A stretch of DNA of 64,000 nucleotides from Herbihabitans rhizosphaerae (lineage in GTDB: Bacteria; Actinomycetota; Actinomycetes; Mycobacteriales; Pseudonocardiaceae), in NCBI RefSeq assembly GCF_004216555.1, contig NZ_SGWQ01000002.1, forward strand, positions 91,120 through 155,119. Direction: 5' to 3'. Below are positions 41,399-64,000 of the stretch, one piece after another. The notes under the pieces are model-generated. The model was given only the letters and a program-made list of their open reading frames with translations, had not been told where the DNA came from and searched no databases. A program made the position numbers and the translations under genes. Every line of letters starts with the position of its first letter. Position 1 is the first letter of the stretch.

Positions 41399-41400
<2 letters not shown>
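40916..41400 (-). pseudogene. C-terminal relic of an ABC exporter ATPase
   Basis: Minus-strand reading gives the second half of an ATPase domain. It runs ETHVFAGTLADDLRLARPEA, then a degenerate signature LTAQQAQQLALARLLL and Walker B VVILDEATADA. A frameshift near 41131 in a GCGCGCGC run follows, then RGRTALVVAHRLSQAATADR and the usual C-terminus. Walker A and the entire membrane domain are missing; the homology starts exactly at the 3' end of the geosmin synthase gene. It resembles the siderophore exporter CchG, which has the same QETHVFAGTL-type block and also a degenerate signature. Confidence 0.75.
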
Positions 41401-47302
<5,902 letters not shown>

Positions 47303-47316
47303 GGAGCGGCACACCG

Positions 47317-49803
47317 ATGGCACGCCGTAAGGGCAGCATCACCAAGATCGACCCGGCCGCGTTCGACAAGCCCGGCGCGACCGTGATCGACAACTCGCTC
47401 AAGACCGAGATCGAGGACTCCTATCTGGAGTACGCGTACTCGGTGATCCACTCGCGCGCCCTGCCGGACGCGCGGGACGGATTGAAGCCGGTACACCGTC
47501 GCATTCTGTATTCGATGAACGAGGCGGGATATCGGCCGACACATGCGTACGTGAAGTCTTCTCGCGTCGTCGGCGACACAATGGGCAAGTTTCATCCACA
47601 CGGCGACACCGCTATTTATGACGCCATGGTCAGAATGGCGCAGGACTTCTCGCTGAATGTGCCGCTGATTGACGGGCACGGTAACTTTGGAAGCCCAGAC
47701 GACGGTCCGGCCGCGAGCAGGTACACCGAGGCTCGAATGTCGCCCGCCGCAATGCGGCTGGTCGGCGAGCTGGGTGAGGACACCGTCGATTTCCGGCCCA
47801 ACTACGACGGTTCGCTGCAGGAGCCGTCGGTGCTTCCCGCGGCGTTTCCGAACCTGTTGGTGAACGGCTCGTCCGGAATCGCCGTCGGCATGGCGACCAA
47901 CATGATTCCGCACAATCTCGGCGAGGTGGTCGAGGCCACCCGCTGGCTGATCACCCACCCGGACGCCTCGCTGGACAAGCTGATGGAGTTCGTGCCGGGC
48001 CCCGACCTGCCCACCGGCGGCATGCTGCTCGGGCTGGACGAGGTGCGCCGCGCCTACGAGACCGGCCGTGGCGTCGTGCGCATGCGCGCCAAGGTGGAGA
48101 TCGGCCCGCTGGAGGGCAGCCGGGGCCGCCAGGCGATCACCCTGGTGGAGCTGCCGTACGCGGTCGGCCCGGAGAAGATCATCGAGAAGATCACCGACGA
48201 GGTCACCAAGTCCAAGCGGCTGTCCGGGATCGCCGACGTGAAGGACCTGACCGACCGGGAGAACGGCACCCGGCTGGTGATCGAGTGCAAGGTCGGCGTG
48301 AACCCGCAGGCGCTGCTCGCCGACCTGTACCGCCTCACGCCGATGGAGCAGTCCTTCGGCATCAACAACCTCGTGCTGGTCGACGGGCAGCCGCGAACCC
48401 TTGGCCTGAAAGAACTTCTGCAAGTGTTCCTGCGGCACCGCTACGAGGTCGTGACCCGGCGCACCCGCTACCGGCGGCGCAAGCGGGAGGAGCGGCTGCA
48501 CCTGGTCGAGGGCCTGCTGATCGCACTGCTGGACATCGACAAGGTGATCAAGCTGATTCGCGGCAGCGAGAACGCGGCCGCCGCGAAGGAAGGCTTGATG
48601 AAGCAGTTCAAGCTCTCCGAGATCCAGGCCACCTACATCCTCGACACGCCGCTGCGCCGCCTCACCAAGTACGACAAGCTCGAGCTGGAGACCGAGCAGG
48701 AGACGCTGCGCAAGGAGATCGCCGAGCTGACCGCGATCCTGGACGACGAGGGCGTGCTCAAGAAGCTCGTGTCCAAGGAGTTGGCCGCGGTCTCCAAGGA
48801 GTTGGCCACCGAGCGGCGCACCGCGCTGATCGACGGCGACCTCAAGGAGGTGCTCGCCGCGTCCAAGCCGGCCGGGCCGCTCGAGGTGGCCGACGATCCG
48901 TGCCAGGTGATCCTGTCCGCGACCGGCCTGGTGGCCAGGACGGCCGCCGACTCCGAGGAGGCCACCGACGCGCGCCGGCGCAGCGGCCGGGCCAAGCACG
49001 ACGCGGTGACCGCGGTCGTGCACTCCACCGCGCGCGGGCAAGTGCTGCTGGTGACTAACCGGGGGCGCGCGTTCAAGACGGACGTATTGCCGCTGCCGGT
49101 ACTGCCCGAGGCGGCCGGCACGGTGTCGCTGTCCGGTGGCATGGCCGCCGGTGAGCTGGTCGACCTCCAGTCGGGGGAGCGGGTGGTCGGTATCGCGCCC
49201 CTCGGCGAGCGGGCCGAGGGATCACCGGGGCTGGCACTGGGCACCCGGCAGGGGGTGGTGAAGGTGTGCTCGCCGGACTGGCCGGTGCGCTCCGACGAGT
49301 TCGACGTGATCACGCTGGCCGACGGCGACGAGGTGGTCGGCGTCGGCTGGCTCACCGACGGCGAGGAGACGCTGGTGTTCATGTCCTCGGACTCGTCGCT
49401 GTTGCGCTACGCCGCGTCGCTGGTGCGGCCGCAGGGTCTGCGCGGCGGCGGCATGGCCGGCATCAAGCTGGCCGCCGGTGCGGGGGCGGTGCACTTCGGC
49501 GCGGTGCGGGTGGACGACAACGAGCACGGCGAGCCGATGGTGGTCACCTCGACCGGGCAGAGCGTGAAGGTGACACCGTTCGCGGAGTACCCGGCGAAGG
49601 GGCGGGCGACCGGCGGGGTGCGATCGCACCGGTTCCTCAAGGGCGAGTCGGCGGTCACGCTGGCCTGGGTCGGGCCACAGCCGGTCGGCGCGTCGCGCAC
49701 CGGATCGGCGGTCGAACTGCCCGAGGTGGACCAGCGTCGTGACGGCTCCGGCGCCGCGCACCCCGGTCCCGACGTCATCGGTCACCAGATCCAGCGAGAC
49801 TAA
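47317..49803 (+). CDS. parC: DNA topoisomerase IV subunit A
   Basis: An 828-residue type IIA topoisomerase breakage-reunion subunit. Winged-helix region with [18 protein letters not shown], catalytic Tyr136 in [11 protein letters not shown], tower and coiled-coil gate (residues about 380-520), then a C-terminal beta-pinwheel-like domain with degenerate blade repeats ([62 protein letters not shown]). No canonical GyrA box is evident, supporting topoisomerase IV. It starts 14 bases after parE behind GAGGAGCGG, so subunits are made together. Decatenates replicated chromosomes. Confidence 0.93.
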
Positions 49804-50170: not shown

Positions 50171-51592
50171 GTGTCGACTGTGACCGATGTGCTGGAACCC
50201 GCGACTACCAATGAGGAAAAACAGCAGCAGAGTCTGAGTACCGGAGCGGCACGGAATTTGGCGACAACGACCAAATCCGTGCCGCAAATGCAGGGTGTCA
50301 CTTCCCGTTGGCTTTTGAAGATGTTGCCCTGGGTGCAGGTTTCCGGTGGTACTTACCGAGTCAACCGGCGCCTGAGTTACACCGTGGGCGACGGCCGCGT
50401 GACGTTCACCGGAACCGGATCGGACGTGCGCGTCATTCCCCAGGAACTCGGCGAGCTGCCGTTGTTGCGCGGGTTCGACGACATCGAGTCGCTCGAGGCG
50501 CTCGCCGGCCGGTTCGAATACCACGAGTACGAACCGGGTGAGGTGATCGCCGAGTTCGGCCACCAAGCCGAGCAGCTGTACCTGATCGTGCACGGCAAGA
50601 TCGGCCGGGTCGGCGTCGGCAAGTACGGCGACCAGACCGAGCTCGGCGTGAAGGCCGACGGCGACTACTTCGGCGACCAGGCCCTCACCGACGACCGGAA
50701 CATGTGGGAGTTCACCGCGAAGGCGGTCACCTCGTGCACCGTACTCACCTTGCGGCGCACACAGTTCGACCAGGTGCTCGAGCAGTCCGACGCGATGCGC
50801 GAGCACGTCGAACGGGTGCTGGCCAGCCCGAAGAAGCGGCACAACCCGCACGGTGAGGCGGAGATCGAGGTGGCCTCCGGGCACGCCGGCGAGGTGGACC
50901 TGCCGAGCACGTTCGTGGACTACGAGGTCGCGCCGCGCGAGTACGAGCTGAGCGTCGCGCAGACCGTGCTGCGGGTGCACAGCCGGGTCGCCGATCTCTA
51001 CAACAAGCCGATGGACCAGGTCGAGCAGCAGTTGCGGCTGACGATCGAGGCATTGCGGGAGCGGCAGGAGAACGAACTCGTCAACAATCGCGAGTTCGGC
51101 CTTCTGCACAATGCCGACTTCTCGCAGCGAATTCACACCAGGAATGGCCCGCCGACGCCGGACGACCTGGACGACCTGTTGGCGATGGTGTGGAAGAATC
51201 CGGGATTCTTCCTGGCCCACCCGAAAACGATCGCGGCCATCGGTCAGGAATTCAACAAGGCCGGCGTGTATCCGAACAGTGTCGACATGAATGGGCACAT
51301 GGTGCCGGCGTGGCGCGGAGTTCCGATCCTGCCGTGCAACAAGATCGGCGTCAGCGAGAAGCGGACCAGCTCTATTCTGCTGATGCGCACTGGTGAGGAG
51401 GCGCAGGGTGTCGTCGGGCTGCACCAGATTGGTATCCCCGATGAGTATCAGCCGGGCCTTTCGGTTCGCTTCATGAACATCAGCGAGCAGGCGATCCTGT
51501 CCTACCTGGTGAGCGCCTACTACTCGATCGCCGTGCTGGTTCCGGACGCGCTGGCCGTTCTGGAGAACGTCGAGATCGGCAGGGCGAGCTGA
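50171..51592 (+). CDS. Family 2B encapsulin shell protein with inserted cNMP-binding-like domain (first of two)
   Basis: A 473-residue EshA-type protein: an HK97-fold encapsulin shell protomer split by a cyclic-nucleotide-binding-like domain. The N-terminal arm ([22 protein letters not shown], about 20-41) and [11 protein letters not shown] precede the insert; the cNMP-like domain spans about 103-220 (GDYFGDQAL at 164-172). The C-terminal shell part has [65 protein letters not shown] and a final [22 protein letters not shown]. By alignment to CAP the phosphate-contacting Arg is Trp179. GTG 50171 (GGAAA upstream) is chosen; GTG 50180 is an alternative. Its stop overlaps the second shell gene. 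Confidence 0.92.
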
Positions 51593-52989
51593 TGACGGCG
51601 GTCGAGACGGTCGTCGAGACGGAGCCACCCCAGCAGAGCCTCAGCACCGGTGCGGCGCGAAAACTGGCCAACACCACCAAGTCGGTGCCGCAGATGCGGG
51701 GCGTCACCCCGCGCTGGCTGTCCAGGATGCTGCCGTGGGTCGAGGCCGAGGGTGCGGCGTACCGGGTCAACCGCAGGCTCAGCTACGCCGTGGGTGACGG
51801 CAGGGTGACCTTCGTCAGCACCGGCAGCGAGGTCCGGGTGATCCCGCGCGAACTGGGCGAACTGGCGCCGCTGCGCGGATTCGACGACGAGGAGGTGCTC
51901 ACCGAACTGGCCAACCGGTTCACCCAACAGGAGATCGAGGCCGGCGAGGTGATCGTCCGAGCCGGCCGCCCGGTCGACTCGGTGTTCCTGCTCGCGCACG
52001 GTAGGGCGGAGAAGCTCGGCGAGGGGCCGTACGGCGACGCGACGCTGCTTCGCGGGCTGGCCGACGGCGACTACTTCGGGGAACAGGCGCTCACCGAGGA
52101 GTCCTCGGTGTGGGACTGCACGGTCAAGGCCGTCACCCCGTGCACCGTGCTGGTGCTGCCGGCGCGCGTGGTGCGGGAGCTGAACGGGCACTCCGACCGG
52201 CTGCGCGACCACGTCCAGCGGGTGCTGTCGCAGGCGGGCAAGCCGCAGAACAAGCACAGCGAGGCCGAGATCGACATCGCGTCGGGTCACGCCGGCGAGG
52301 CCGATCTGCCGGCCACGTTCGTGGACTACGACACCGCGCCGCGCGAGTACGAATTGGGTGCCGCGCAGACCCGGCTGCGGATCCACACCCGCGTCGCCGA
52401 TCTCTACAACGACCCGATGGACCAGGTCGACCAACAAGTGCGGCTCACCGTTTCCGCATTGCGCGAACGCCGGGAGTACGAGCTGGTCAACAATCCCGAC
52501 TTCGGGCTGCTGCACAACGCCGACCTGAAACAGCGCATCTATTCCCGGACCGGCCCGCCGACTCCGGAGGACATGGACGAACTGCTGTCCCGGCGGCGGA
52601 AGACGCGGTTCTTCCTCGCGCATCCGAAGACGATCGCGGCGATCGGCCGGGAGTGCACCAAGCGCGGCATCTACCCGCAGGACGTCGAGGTCGACGGCAC
52701 CATGGTACGCGCGTGGCGGGGTGTCCCGATCCTCCCGTGCGACAAGATCCCGGTTACCGAGAACAACACCAGCTCCATTCTGGCGATGCGCACCGGGCGA
52801 GAGGACGAAGGTGTCATCGGACTGCACCAGACCGGTATTCCGGACGAGTACGAGCCGGGCCTTTCCGTGCGGTTCACCGGAATCGGCGACAACGCGATCA
52901 TGACATATCTGGTCAGCACGTATTTCTCCGCCGCGGTGCTCGTTCCCGACGCACTCGGCGTTCTCGAGCACGTCGACATCGGCCGCTAG
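51592..52989 (+). CDS. Family 2B encapsulin shell protein with inserted cNMP-binding-like domain (second of two)
   Basis: A 465-residue paralogue of the preceding protein with the same order: N-arm ([22 protein letters not shown]), [12 protein letters not shown], cNMP-like insert (about 95-215, GDYFGEQAL at 159-167, Trp174 where CAP has its phosphate Arg), then the HK97 shell ([83 protein letters not shown]). The insert is the most divergent part. TGATG overlap with the first gene implies matched synthesis, as for a two-component shell. The cargo candidate gene starts 10 bases downstream. Confidence 0.92.
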
Positions 52990-52998
52990 GAGAGGTAA

Positions 52999-54042
52999 AT
53001 GACGACCATGCGTGAGGCGCCGACGGGGGCCCGGTCGGCCCGTGAAGTACTCGACTGGAGCAGGGAGGTGGTCGACTCCGGCATGCGTGCCGCCGTGGAC
53101 ACGCTGCCGGAGTCGGTGCGCCACATCGCCGGCTACCACCTCGGCTGGTGGGACGTGCGCGGCCGGCCGGAGTCGGCCGATCGCGGCAAGGCCCTGCGCC
53201 CGGCGCTCACGCTGCTGTGCACACGGGCGGTCGGTGCCGACTCGTCGGTCGGGCTGCCGGCCGCCGTGGCGGTCGAGCTGACGCACAATTTCTCGTTGCT
53301 GCACGACGACGTGATGGACGGCGATCGCACCCGCCGGCACCGGCTGACCGCGTGGAGCGCGTTCGGCGTCGGCCCGGCCATCCTCGCCGGGGACGCGCTG
53401 CTCACCCTCGCGCTCGACGTGCTGACCACCAGCGGTCACCCCGAATGCCGGCTGGCCGCGCACAGCCTGAGCGACGCGGTGCAGGAGCTGTTACACGGCC
53501 AGATGCTCGACCTGGAGTTCGAGCGGCGCGACTCGGTAAGCCTGGACGAGTGCCTCACCATGGCGGAGGGCAAGACCGCCGCGTTGCTCGGGCGGGCGTG
53601 CGCACTCGGCGCGCTGTTCGGCGGCGGCCGGCCGGCGCAGGTGCAGCTGCTGCGCAGCTACGGCGAGCGGCTCGGTCTGGCGTTCCAGCTCGTCGACGAT
53701 CTGCTCGGGATCTGGGGCGATCCGAGGCGCACCGGCAAACCGGTCTACTCCGATGTGATCAGCCGCAAGAAGTCGCTGCCGGTGGTGGCCGCGCTGACCT
53801 CCGGCACCGACGCCGGGCGTGAGCTGGCCGATCTGTACGGCCGGCCGGATCCGTTGTCCGGTCCCCAACTGGCCCGCGCCGGGGAGCTGATCGAGTTGGC
53901 CGGCGGGCGCGCGTGGAGCGCCGACCACGCCGAGGAGATGCTGACCGAGGCGCTGCGGCACCTGAACGCGTCCGGCCCGGACCCGGAGTCGGCCGCCGAG
54001 CTGACCGCCGTGGCCCGGCTCGTCGTCGCCAGGGACCGGTGA
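52999..54042 (+). CDS. Polyprenyl diphosphate synthase, probable encapsulin cargo
   Basis: A 347-residue all-helical trans-isoprenyl diphosphate synthase. First aspartate-rich motif DDVMD (103-107, bacterial short form), GKALRPAL upstream, GQMLDLEFE (167-175), and second motif DDLLGIWGD (233-241) followed by a KKSLP block. Chain length cannot be set with confidence. AGGAGAGG precedes the ATG, 10 bases after the second shell gene. Polyprenyl transferases are a recognised cargo class of Family 2B encapsulins. Unlike cargos with a long disordered N-terminal tail, this one has only about 12 flexible residues (MTTMREAPTGAR), so the loading determinant is unclear. Confidence 0.88.
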   Translation: MTTMREAPTGARSAREVLDWSREVVDSGMRAAVDTLPESVRHIAGYHLGWWDVRGRPESADRGKALRPALTLLCTRAVGADSSVGLPAAVAVELTHNFSLLHDDVMDGDRTRRHRLTAWSAFGVGPAILAGDALLTLALDVLTTSGHPECRLAAHSLSDAVQELLHGQMLDLEFERRDSVSLDECLTMAEGKTAALLGRACALGALFGGGRPAQVQLLRSYGERLGLAFQLVDDLLGIWGDPRRTGKPVYSDVISRKKSLPVVAALTSGTDAGRELADLYGRPDPLSGPQLARAGELIELAGGRAWSADHAEEMLTEALRHLNASGPDPESAAELTAVARLVVARDR

Positions 54043-54045
54043 GCC

Positions 54046-55026
54046 GTGGACCCGCGAGATCCCGCGTGGCGGGCGGCCGCCGGTTCGCGCACTGTGCTGC
54101 TGGCCGCGCCGCGCTCGTTCTGCGCCGGCGTGGAGCGCGCGATCGAGATCGTGCGCCGGGTGCTGGCCACCGCCGGCCCACCGGTGTACGTGCGCCGCCA
54201 GATCGTGCACAACGCGCACGTGGTGGCCGAGCTGGAGCGCGACGGGGCGGTGTTCGTGGAGGAGTTGAACGCCGTGCCGGACGGTGCGACCGTGGTCTTC
54301 TCCGCGCACGGCGTCTCGCCGGCCGTGCGTGCCGAGGCGGCCGAGCGTGGGCTGGACGTGGTGGACGCGACCTGTCCGCTGGTGGCCAAGGTGCACGTCG
54401 AGGCGACCCGGTTCGCCACGCGCGGCGACACCGTTCTGCTGATCGGGCACGCCGGGCACGACGAGGTGGAGGGCACGCTCGGCGAGGCGCCGCAGTCGAC
54501 CATTCTGGTGGAGGACGTCGAGGCGGTGCCGCACATCGAGGTGCCCGACCCGCGGCGCGTCTCCTACCTGACGCAGACCACGCTCGCGGTGGACGAGACC
54601 GCGGAGATCGTGGACGCCCTGCGCGCGCGGTTCCCCGAGATGCGCGGGCCGGCGTCGGAGGACATCTGCTACGCGACCACCAACCGGCAGCAGGCGCTCG
54701 CGGCGGTCGCCGCCGACGCCGATCTCGTGCTGGTGGTCGGCTCGGCCAACTCGTCCAACTCGGTGCGGCTGGTGGAGGTGGCCGAGCGGGGCGGCACTCC
54801 GGCACGGCTGATCGAGGACGCCGACGCGATCGATCCGGCCTGGCTCGCCGGCACGTCGGTGATCGGCCTGACCGCCGGCGCGTCGGCCCCGCCGCCGTTG
54901 GTCGACGGCGTGGTGTCGGCGCTGCGCGCGCTCGGCGAGGTCACCGTCGTGGAGCGGGAGACGGCGCGCGAGACCGTCGAGTTCGCCCTCCCGCTGGGGT
55001 TGCGGTCGGGATCGGCCGATGGCTGA
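54046..55026 (+). CDS. ispH: 4-hydroxy-3-methylbut-2-enyl diphosphate reductase
   Basis: A 326-residue [4Fe-4S] enzyme, last step of the MEP pathway, producing IPP and DMAPP. The three cluster cysteines are Cys26 ([10 protein letters not shown]), Cys110 (VDATCPLV) and Cys208 ([11 protein letters not shown]). His56 in IVHNAHVV and the SAHG block are also present. GTG 54046 lies 3 bases after the polyprenyl synthase stop, so the two are co-translated. It supplies the C5 units used by the neighbouring prenyl synthase; possibly a second, cluster-specific copy beside a housekeeping one elsewhere. Confidence 0.95.
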
Positions 55027-55251: not shown

Positions 55252-55758
55252 ATGTCAACCACGATGCGCAGAACGCTGGCTGTCGGGATCACCGGTGTGG
55301 CGGCGGCCGCGCTGCTCACCGCCGCGTCGGCGCCGGCCTCGGGAGACTCACCGAGGGACACACTGGAACTGGTGGCCAAGCGGACGGTGTTCAGCGTGCC
55401 GCAGGTGCCGGCCGTCGGAATCGGGTTCATCGGCGGCGGCGACCTGTTCGACTCCACCGGCGTGAACAAGGTGGGCGAGGGCTACTCCAGTTGCGCCATC
55501 GCGAAACTGGGTGTCGAGGTGCCGCCGACGTTCACCGCACAGTGCGGCAGCACCTACCGCCTGGCCGACGGCGAGCTGCACCTGTCCAGCCTGCGGCAGT
55601 ACAAGGCGGGTCAGGCCGGGTTCAACGAGGGCGCGATCGCGATCCTCGGCGGCACCGGGAAGTACGCCACCGCGAGAGGCGAGGGGAAGAGCGCGCCGGC
55701 CGCGCCCGGCAAGGCGAACGTGGGCTACCGGTTCACGTTCACCATCGTCACCGGGTGA
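55252..55758 (+). CDS. Secreted dirigent/allene-oxide-cyclase-barrel-like protein
   Basis: A 168-residue exported protein. Signal peptide with hydrophobic GVAAAALLTAAS and an ASA/PAS cleavage zone near 28-30. The mature part has the eight-stranded AOC-barrel pattern: VGIGFIGGGDLFDS, EGYSSCAIAKLGV, FNEGAIAILGGTGKYATARGEG (the GTGxYxxARG motif of dirigent-like proteins) and a terminal VGYRFTFTIV. In plants such barrels steer terpenoid or phenolic couplings; bacterial ones have no assigned role. AGGAAGG lies ahead of the ATG. It follows the isoprenoid operon directly, so a link to terpenoids is possible but not shown. Confidence 0.68.
   Translation: MSTTMRRTLAVGITGVAAAALLTAASAPASGDSPRDTLELVAKRTVFSVPQVPAVGIGFIGGGDLFDSTGVNKVGEGYSSCAIAKLGVEVPPTFTAQCGSTYRLADGELHLSSLRQYKAGQAGFNEGAIAILGGTGKYATARGEGKSAPAAPGKANVGYRFTFTIVTG

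Positions 55759-62679: not shown

Positions 62680-64000
<1,321 letters not shown>

Follow-up and report, generated by a model that had tools for sequence, protein, structure and literature searches.

We analysed a stretch of 64,000 nucleotides from Herbihabitans rhizosphaerae (contig NZ_SGWQ01000002.1, positions 91,120 to 155,119), hereafter the window, in which four genes in a row encode two Family 2B encapsulin shell proteins (Enc1 and Enc2), a polyprenyl diphosphate synthase (PT) and a second genomic copy of IspH. We propose that Enc1 and Enc2 are a Family 2B pair predicted to build a mixed shell, and that the main cargo of this shell is likely a tag-bearing homologue of germacradienol/geosmin synthase (GS), whose gene lies on the opposite strand, 6.6 kb upstream; we put the probability of this reading at roughly 0.6. 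It is built on gene content, gene order, motifs, the second IspH copy, the co-occurrence of shells and GS, and the likeness between the GS tags and the N-terminal arm (N-arm) of the shell proteins, all observed here. The parts are all of known kinds, and the likely main cargo was overlooked by an earlier note on this DNA, which had placed PT in a mixed shell with IspH near or inside it. The genes concerned are:

50171..51592, + strand: Enc1, Family 2B encapsulin shell protein of the upstream type, 473 residues (NF041163, 778 bits; PF19307 and PF00027)
51592..52989, + strand: Enc2, Family 2B encapsulin shell protein of the downstream type, 465 residues (NF041163, 749 bits; PF19307 and PF00027)
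52999..54042, + strand: PT, all-trans polyprenyl diphosphate synthase with DDVMD at residue 103 (NF041169, 475 bits, cut-off 450; PF00348)
54046..55026, + strand: IspH, second genomic copy, with cysteines 26, 110 and 208 in the expected motifs (TIGR00216, 309 bits; PF02401)
41399..43600, - strand: GS, two-domain germacradienol/geosmin synthase homologue, 733 residues (NF041168, 1164 bits; 5dw7, 523 bits; two PF19086 stretches)

GS was found by a terpene-cyclase search of the window genome. It lies outside the coordinates of the earlier note, 6,570 bases before Enc1, on the opposite strand and beyond gyrBA. The solved germacradienol/geosmin synthase 5dw7 matches its first domain and linker, and the protein combines two cyclase domains with tag motifs between them and at the C-terminus, the arrangement of GS-type cargo. 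For GS-like cargo, PMC8346489 describes a consensus motif that occurs both between the domains and at the C-terminus, and suggests that it serves in targeting. The tag-like motifs of GS, and the stretches of the shell proteins that they resemble, are:

42548..42580, - strand: inter-domain tag-like motif of GS, 11 residues, in position and motif as reported in PMC8346489
41423..41455, - strand: C-terminal tag-like motif of GS, 11 residues (18.9 bits with the shell N-arm profile)
50231..50263, + strand: N-arm core of Enc1, 11 residues, strongly conserved in the aligned shells and resembling the GS tag
51637..51669, + strand: N-arm core of Enc2, 11 residues, likewise strongly conserved and resembling the GS tag

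Shell proteins from 93 sources, the window among them, were aligned (167 proteins, 165 of them different, as L082 and L214 are the same locus), and the N-arm with its LGTAAAR core is strongly conserved across them. We built profiles from shell sequences only, one of this 7-residue core and a longer one of 11 positions, with reversed sequences as controls. The core profile reached at least 10 bits in 39 of 52 GS proteins compared with 2 of 52 reversed ones, and the 60 GS matches of at least 8 bits fell in the linker (29), at the C-terminus (29) or elsewhere (2), on a background of 0.10 matches per 732 residues. With the 11-position profile, 12 of the 52 GS proteins and no reversed sequence scored at least 10 bits. 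The GS tags thus resemble the shell N-arm and may dock at the N-arm site. In the open literature, the string GPTGLGT turned up in one paper, PMC8346489, whose passages on the string are silent on the N-arm.

Shells and GS occur together across genomes. Among 60 relatives from 58 genera (GS match at E <= 1e-40), 23 have a 2B shell that passes the cut-off, GS is present in every one of these, and 36 have neither (p 1e-15); the remaining relative, G016, has fragments of both. A class sample of 296 genomes (GS match at E <= 1e-60) contains 70 with a full 2B shell, 67 with GS and 64 with both (p 8e-54). These p-values, like the Fisher test given below, were computed without regard to phylogeny. Every one of the 67 GS-bearing class genomes has a Family 2 shell match (64 full 2B shells, one HK97 part only and two fragments). 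As a separate observation, the shell and GS fragments of G016 lie side by side at G016:C16:104094-105202 (L030, L254), as if lost together.

Within the relatives, a GLGT-type tag is present in 22 of 22 full-length GS proteins, window included, regardless of where the gene lies: seven are on another contig, nine at least 49 kb from the shells, five are linked, and that of the window is near. All 16 unlinked proteins are therefore among the tagged ones. GLGT is expected only 0.04 times per 732 residues in the other open reading frames of the 80 closest PT loci. These 80 loci come from a PT scan of other genomes and are the closest among the matches listed. Of their 48 two-shell loci, 21 hold a GS-related cyclase between the shells, a count that includes single-domain relatives of GS. 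The prediction that the cargo is encoded in trans where the locus shows none was then put to 42 named genomes, from which L100 and L105 were set aside as their own loci show a GS-related cyclase. GS was found elsewhere in 39 of the remaining 40: in 23 of 23 genomes with a two-shell PT locus, in 9 of 10 with one shell and in 7 of 7 with no shell near PT. In at least four of this last group (G393, G395, G398, G399), GS adjoins shells at another place in the genome or sits between them. The exception, G391, has no GS and no shell match at E <= 1e-60, with a 35% partial match at the locus. The tag stands in the linker or at the C-terminus of 28 of the 29 GS proteins read in the 40 genomes, and the GS of the L100 genome is tagged too. 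The named set probably shares genomes with the class sample, as the places found for G393 and G395, at least, coincide with those of its members G232 and G109.

Several observations weigh against GS as the main cargo. At 475 bits, PT passes the curated cut-off (450) of NF041169, named 'family 2 encapsulin cargo protein polyprenyl transferase', and GS, matched over its full length at 1164 bits, narrowly misses the cut-off (1200) of NF041168, which bears the name 'family 2 encapsulin cargo protein terpene cyclase'. With the 11-position N-arm profile, 6 of 102 PTs and no reversed PT reach 10 bits, at sites inside the folded body. In no other genome seen do GS and the operon lie on either side of gyrBA, so that their nearness in the window genome is no conserved link. 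Six genomes of the class sample have a 2B shell without GS. One GS of the named set, L330, has no tag; among the 29 GS proteins read from the 67 class genomes, eight, all of genus g78, lack the GLGT tag despite the presence of shells, and L267 of the same sample has a degenerate tag only. Untagged GS in shell-bearing genomes means that co-occurrence is not always cargo loading. Finally, shells and GS may both be tied to a filamentous life style.

The first of these points bears on an alternative that we consider unlikely, namely that the mixed shell chiefly houses PT, which is fed by IspH and makes a linear prenyl diphosphate for another pathway, and that GS is a free neighbour. PT lies directly behind the shells, PTs are counted as a Family 2 cargo class in the 2021 survey (PMC8346489), and 20 of the 23 shell genomes have a PT above the cut-off. 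The same survey describes PT cargo with a disordered N-terminal domain of 50–100 residues. No such domain appears in the AlphaFold2 model of PT (mean predicted local distance difference test, pLDDT, 91.8), in which only residues 1–8 fall below a pLDDT of 50 and the first helix starts at residue 14. Most PT relatives look equally short as judged by their putative start codons, and a few of the 120 homologues listed are longer, at 389–395 residues or about 45 more. The N-arm core is found at 10 bits or more in 3 of 102 PTs and in 3 of 102 reversed PTs, and at 8 bits in 7 compared with 15 reversed (the L082/L214 locus enters these PT counts, and the IspH counts below, twice). PT-family matches occur in 12 of the 37 genomes without intact shells (one over the cut-off, 11 weaker), whereas GS occurs in just one of these 37, the G016 with its fragments. 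PT is thus a looser partner of the shells than GS, it is GS that carries the tags, and the earlier proposal of PT as the enclosed cargo is weakened. A hidden tag in PT was also considered and ruled out as a general tag: the core is no commoner than in reversed sequences, the 11-position sites lie inside the fold, and among 18 listed PT sites of at least 6 bits one alone (L063) is N-terminal. A conserved RSARE-ML stretch is shared by PTs that have no shells nearby.

A further alternative, which we regard as quite improbable, holds that GS and shells co-occur through a filamentous, sporulating life style, that GS is unencapsulated here and that the GLGT tags have some other role. The untagged GS of the eight genomes of one shell-bearing genus would fit such a view, as would co-occurrence counts that ignore phylogeny and the remoteness of 16 of the 22 relatives' GS genes, which are found on a different contig from the shells or 49 kb or more away from them. 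Against it, those same 16 unlinked proteins are all GLGT-tagged, the GS tags match the shell N-arm, 21 of the 48 two-shell PT loci have a GS-related cyclase within the shell operon, and G016 has both shell and GS in fragmentary form. The untagged proteins of g78 (L277, L279, L281-L284, L286, L288) offer a natural control for tag function.

The shell proteins themselves are clearly of Family 2B. Both exceed the NF041163 cut-off of 400 bits and contain an HK97-type SrpI-like domain with an inserted cNMP-like domain, as the earlier note had recognised for the pair, and the solved chains 9bje, 9bix and 9bhu match Enc1 at 649–676 bits. Enc1 and Enc2 are 64% identical (BLASTP); the identity drops to 48.8% within the cNMP-like insert and is about 69% over the N-terminal and HK97 regions. 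The canonical cyclic-nucleotide cassette motif carries an arginine. This phosphate-binding-cassette arginine is not present in the two window shells, whose cassettes read MWEFT and VWDCT, and tryptophan occupies the column in 163 of the 167 aligned shells. The cNMP-like domains of such shells are reported not to bind cyclic nucleotides (PMC12407261). The two proteins differ at a diagnostic motif:

51185..51196, + strand: diagnostic motif 1 of Enc1, MVWK (W-K type)
52591..52602, + strand: diagnostic motif 1 of Enc2, RRRK (RR type)

In Streptomyces lydicus, this motif is TVWK in Enc1 and RRRK in Enc2, and the two proteins co-assemble (PMC12407261). The window thus has an upstream shell of the Enc1 type and a downstream shell of the Enc2 type, the composition of a two-component system. 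With the L082/L214 duplicate removed, two-shell loci, that of the window among them, give 73 different upstream shells, every one with the W-K motif, and 73 downstream shells, of which 72 have the RR motif and the remaining one is unaligned there. The motifs fit co-assembly, and by analogy with the S. lydicus pair they support the earlier suggestion of a mixed shell, which we consider likely for the window. It is very improbable that Enc1 and Enc2 instead form separate homo-shells, or that only Enc2 forms shells and no mixed compartment exists: S. lydicus Enc2 is able to make shells on its own (PMC12407261) and 18 of 19 lone shells are of the Enc2 type (some of them lone merely through a contig end), but S. 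lydicus Enc1 gives no shell alone and co-assembles with Enc2 (PMC12407261), and the upstream gene of every one of the 73 pairs is of the Enc1 type.

The four genes of the row lie head to tail on the + strand in the order Enc1, Enc2, PT, ispH. Enc1 and Enc2 share TGATG at 51590-51594 and ispH begins 3 bases past PT, both as the earlier note had it, while PT starts 9 bases past Enc2 and not 10 as given there; the start codon of ispH is GTG. A scan for promoter-like sites gave none, and the single terminator-like site is on the wrong strand and as expected by chance. Among the 80 closest PT loci, ispH lies downstream of PT in 33. Dropping 15 loci with short flanks leaves 65, of which 48 have two shells (29 with ispH, 19 without), 10 have one shell (2 with ispH) and 7 have no shell nearby (none with ispH). 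The full order of two shells, PT and ispH thus recurs in 29 of 65 loci, more than expected by chance. All seven loci without nearby shells belong to genomes with shells elsewhere, and a shell match was found in 16 of the 17 genomes whose PT locus has one shell or none. One of the two one-shell loci with ispH, L094, offers no more than a 35% shell match of 174 residues there, and its genome gives no shell match at E <= 1e-60. The difference between two-shell and one-shell loci (29 of 48 against 2 of 10; Fisher p 0.034) makes ispH a mark of two-shell loci that is suggestive only.

IspH of the row belongs to the LytB family and has the three conserved cysteines, whose role we take to be the one familiar from other IspH proteins; its score lies well above the TIGR00216 cut-off of 188 bits. 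The other IspH of the window genome, at G000:C1:247465, is 56% identical. A further IspH is likewise present in all 24 genomes tested out of the 33 with a PT-linked IspH, and 6 of 11 genomes without a PT-linked copy have a single IspH. In a tree of 85 rows, the 33 PT-linked proteins (32 loci and the window; L056 left out) fall into one set with support 97/90, apart from the housekeeping IspHs, and this set includes three copies with no shell within about 10 kb. The operon IspH is a dedicated second copy, and the counts and the tree support the earlier idea of a dedicated supply of isopentenyl diphosphate (IPP) and dimethylallyl diphosphate (DMAPP). Its placement inside the shell finds no support: the N-arm core is present in 0 of 44 IspHs, as in 0 reversed ones. 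IspH requires an electron donor, and for this reason, together with the missing tag match, it is probably outside the shell. Twelve of the 33 PT-linked IspHs, among them L057:11121-11516 and L074:11055-11396, have an extra N-terminal alpha/beta domain of about 100–130 residues, and the eight that were aligned share an invariant cysteine in it; in two that were scanned, NCBIfam matched the IspH part alone. We rejected this extension as a cargo tag, as some secondary IspHs that lie away from shells have related extensions (clearly in L152, weakly in L147, L149, L150 and L159, E 6e-4 to 8e-3) and the window copy has none.

As to the product of PT, the closest solved fold to the model is 3nf2, followed by geranylgeranyl diphosphate synthases, and P0083, which is 64% identical, bears the record name farnesyl diphosphate synthase. 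Chain length follows from the residues before the first DD motif, and the phenylalanine at -5 and serine at -4 of DDVMD fit a C15 or a C20 product. We predict C15, with C20 possible; farnesyl diphosphate (FPP) is preferred because GS needs FPP. Elsewhere in the genome, at G000:C10:102057-106172, two adjacent polyprenyl synthase genes are followed at 2–3 kb by a weak terpene-synthase match and may belong to a separate terpenoid cluster.

In the pathway that we envisage for GS as the enclosed enzyme, IspH would make more IPP and DMAPP available, and PT would join them, most likely to FPP, with a C20 product as the alternative. Two GLGT(S)AAR-like tags would hold GS inside the shell, perhaps at the N-arm docking site. 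FPP could then enter by large two-fold pores under the cNMP-like domains, if their size is as in the S. lydicus shell, and GS would cyclise it to germacradienol and geosmin, the reaction of its homologues. The trans-encoded genes described above suggest that many PT-type operons are a terpene cyclase/PT (TC/PT) system with the cyclase in trans. We tentatively go further, at somewhat less than even odds, and hypothesise that PT-type Family 2B operons do not form a cargo class of their own but supply the shell and the precursors of a geosmin nanocompartment, its cyclase being encoded in trans, and that the cargo is addressed by self-mimicry: GLGTSAAR would copy the SLGTAAARNL of the N-arm and take its docking site, making N-arm state, pore opening and cargo load one switch. 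Neither the likeness of tag and N-arm nor a rule of trans-encoded cargo for prenyl or geosmin encapsulins was found in the open literature, a search that covered neither subscription journals nor most preprints.

If true, an operon class so far sorted by its prenyl synthase would gain a defined product, geosmin or a close sesquiterpenoid, and the second IspH beside shells in many actinobacteria would be explained. Cargo could be located genome-wide and beyond adjacency, as the in-trans rule would catch cargo that operon-based surveys miss. It would also provide a precise hypothesis of cargo loading, in which the matching of cargo to shell is testable.

Some features around these genes stand apart from the argument. 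Between GS and the operon, a gyrB-like gene at 43772-47302 (+) contains an intein (Intein_splicing, residues 534-964) and adjoins a gyrA/topoisomerase IV A gene at 47317-49803. We also considered whether gyrBA regularly bridges GS and the operon and discarded the idea, since gyrBA matches were absent next to GS in all 12 relatives examined and next to the shells in all 28 loci. Just past ispH, an open frame at 55252-55758 (+) has a start that by eye resembles a signal peptide and a sub-threshold match to an allene-oxide-cyclase-like barrel. The window ends, at 63906-64000, in a perfect 7-base tandem repeat (CGGTTTC, 13.6 copies) inside an open frame.

The paired shells are reminiscent of the two-component Family 2B system of S. 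lydicus (PMC12407261), with which they share adjacent Enc1 (WK) and Enc2 (RR) genes and cNMP-like inserts. However, the S. lydicus operon is of the xylulose-kinase type and no cargo is shown for it in the sections concerned, whereas in the window PT and ispH follow the shells and a tagged GS homologue lies nearby. The remark of the earlier note that few paired-shell prenyl systems have been characterised fits the open literature as far as it was searched.

GS shares its two terpene-synthase domains with the germacradienol/geosmin synthase of PDB entries 5dw7 and 5dz2 and differs from it in the GLGT tags of its linker and C-terminus, which most GS proteins read here also carry but the eight of genus g78 do not. 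When comparing the row with the PT and TC/PT types of two-component operon (PMC12407261, PMC8346489), the position of PT directly after Enc2 is common to all. PT operons are reported with genes of precursor biosynthesis, and TC/PT operons with the TC between Enc1 and Enc2 (PMC12407261, PMC8346489). Whereas the cyclase of TC/PT operons is thus part of the operon, that of the window lies outside, on the other strand and beyond gyrBA. The geosmin-encapsulin genes described for Myxococcota are clustered (PMC12224551), whereas in the actinobacterial relatives examined here GS is often encoded far from the shells.

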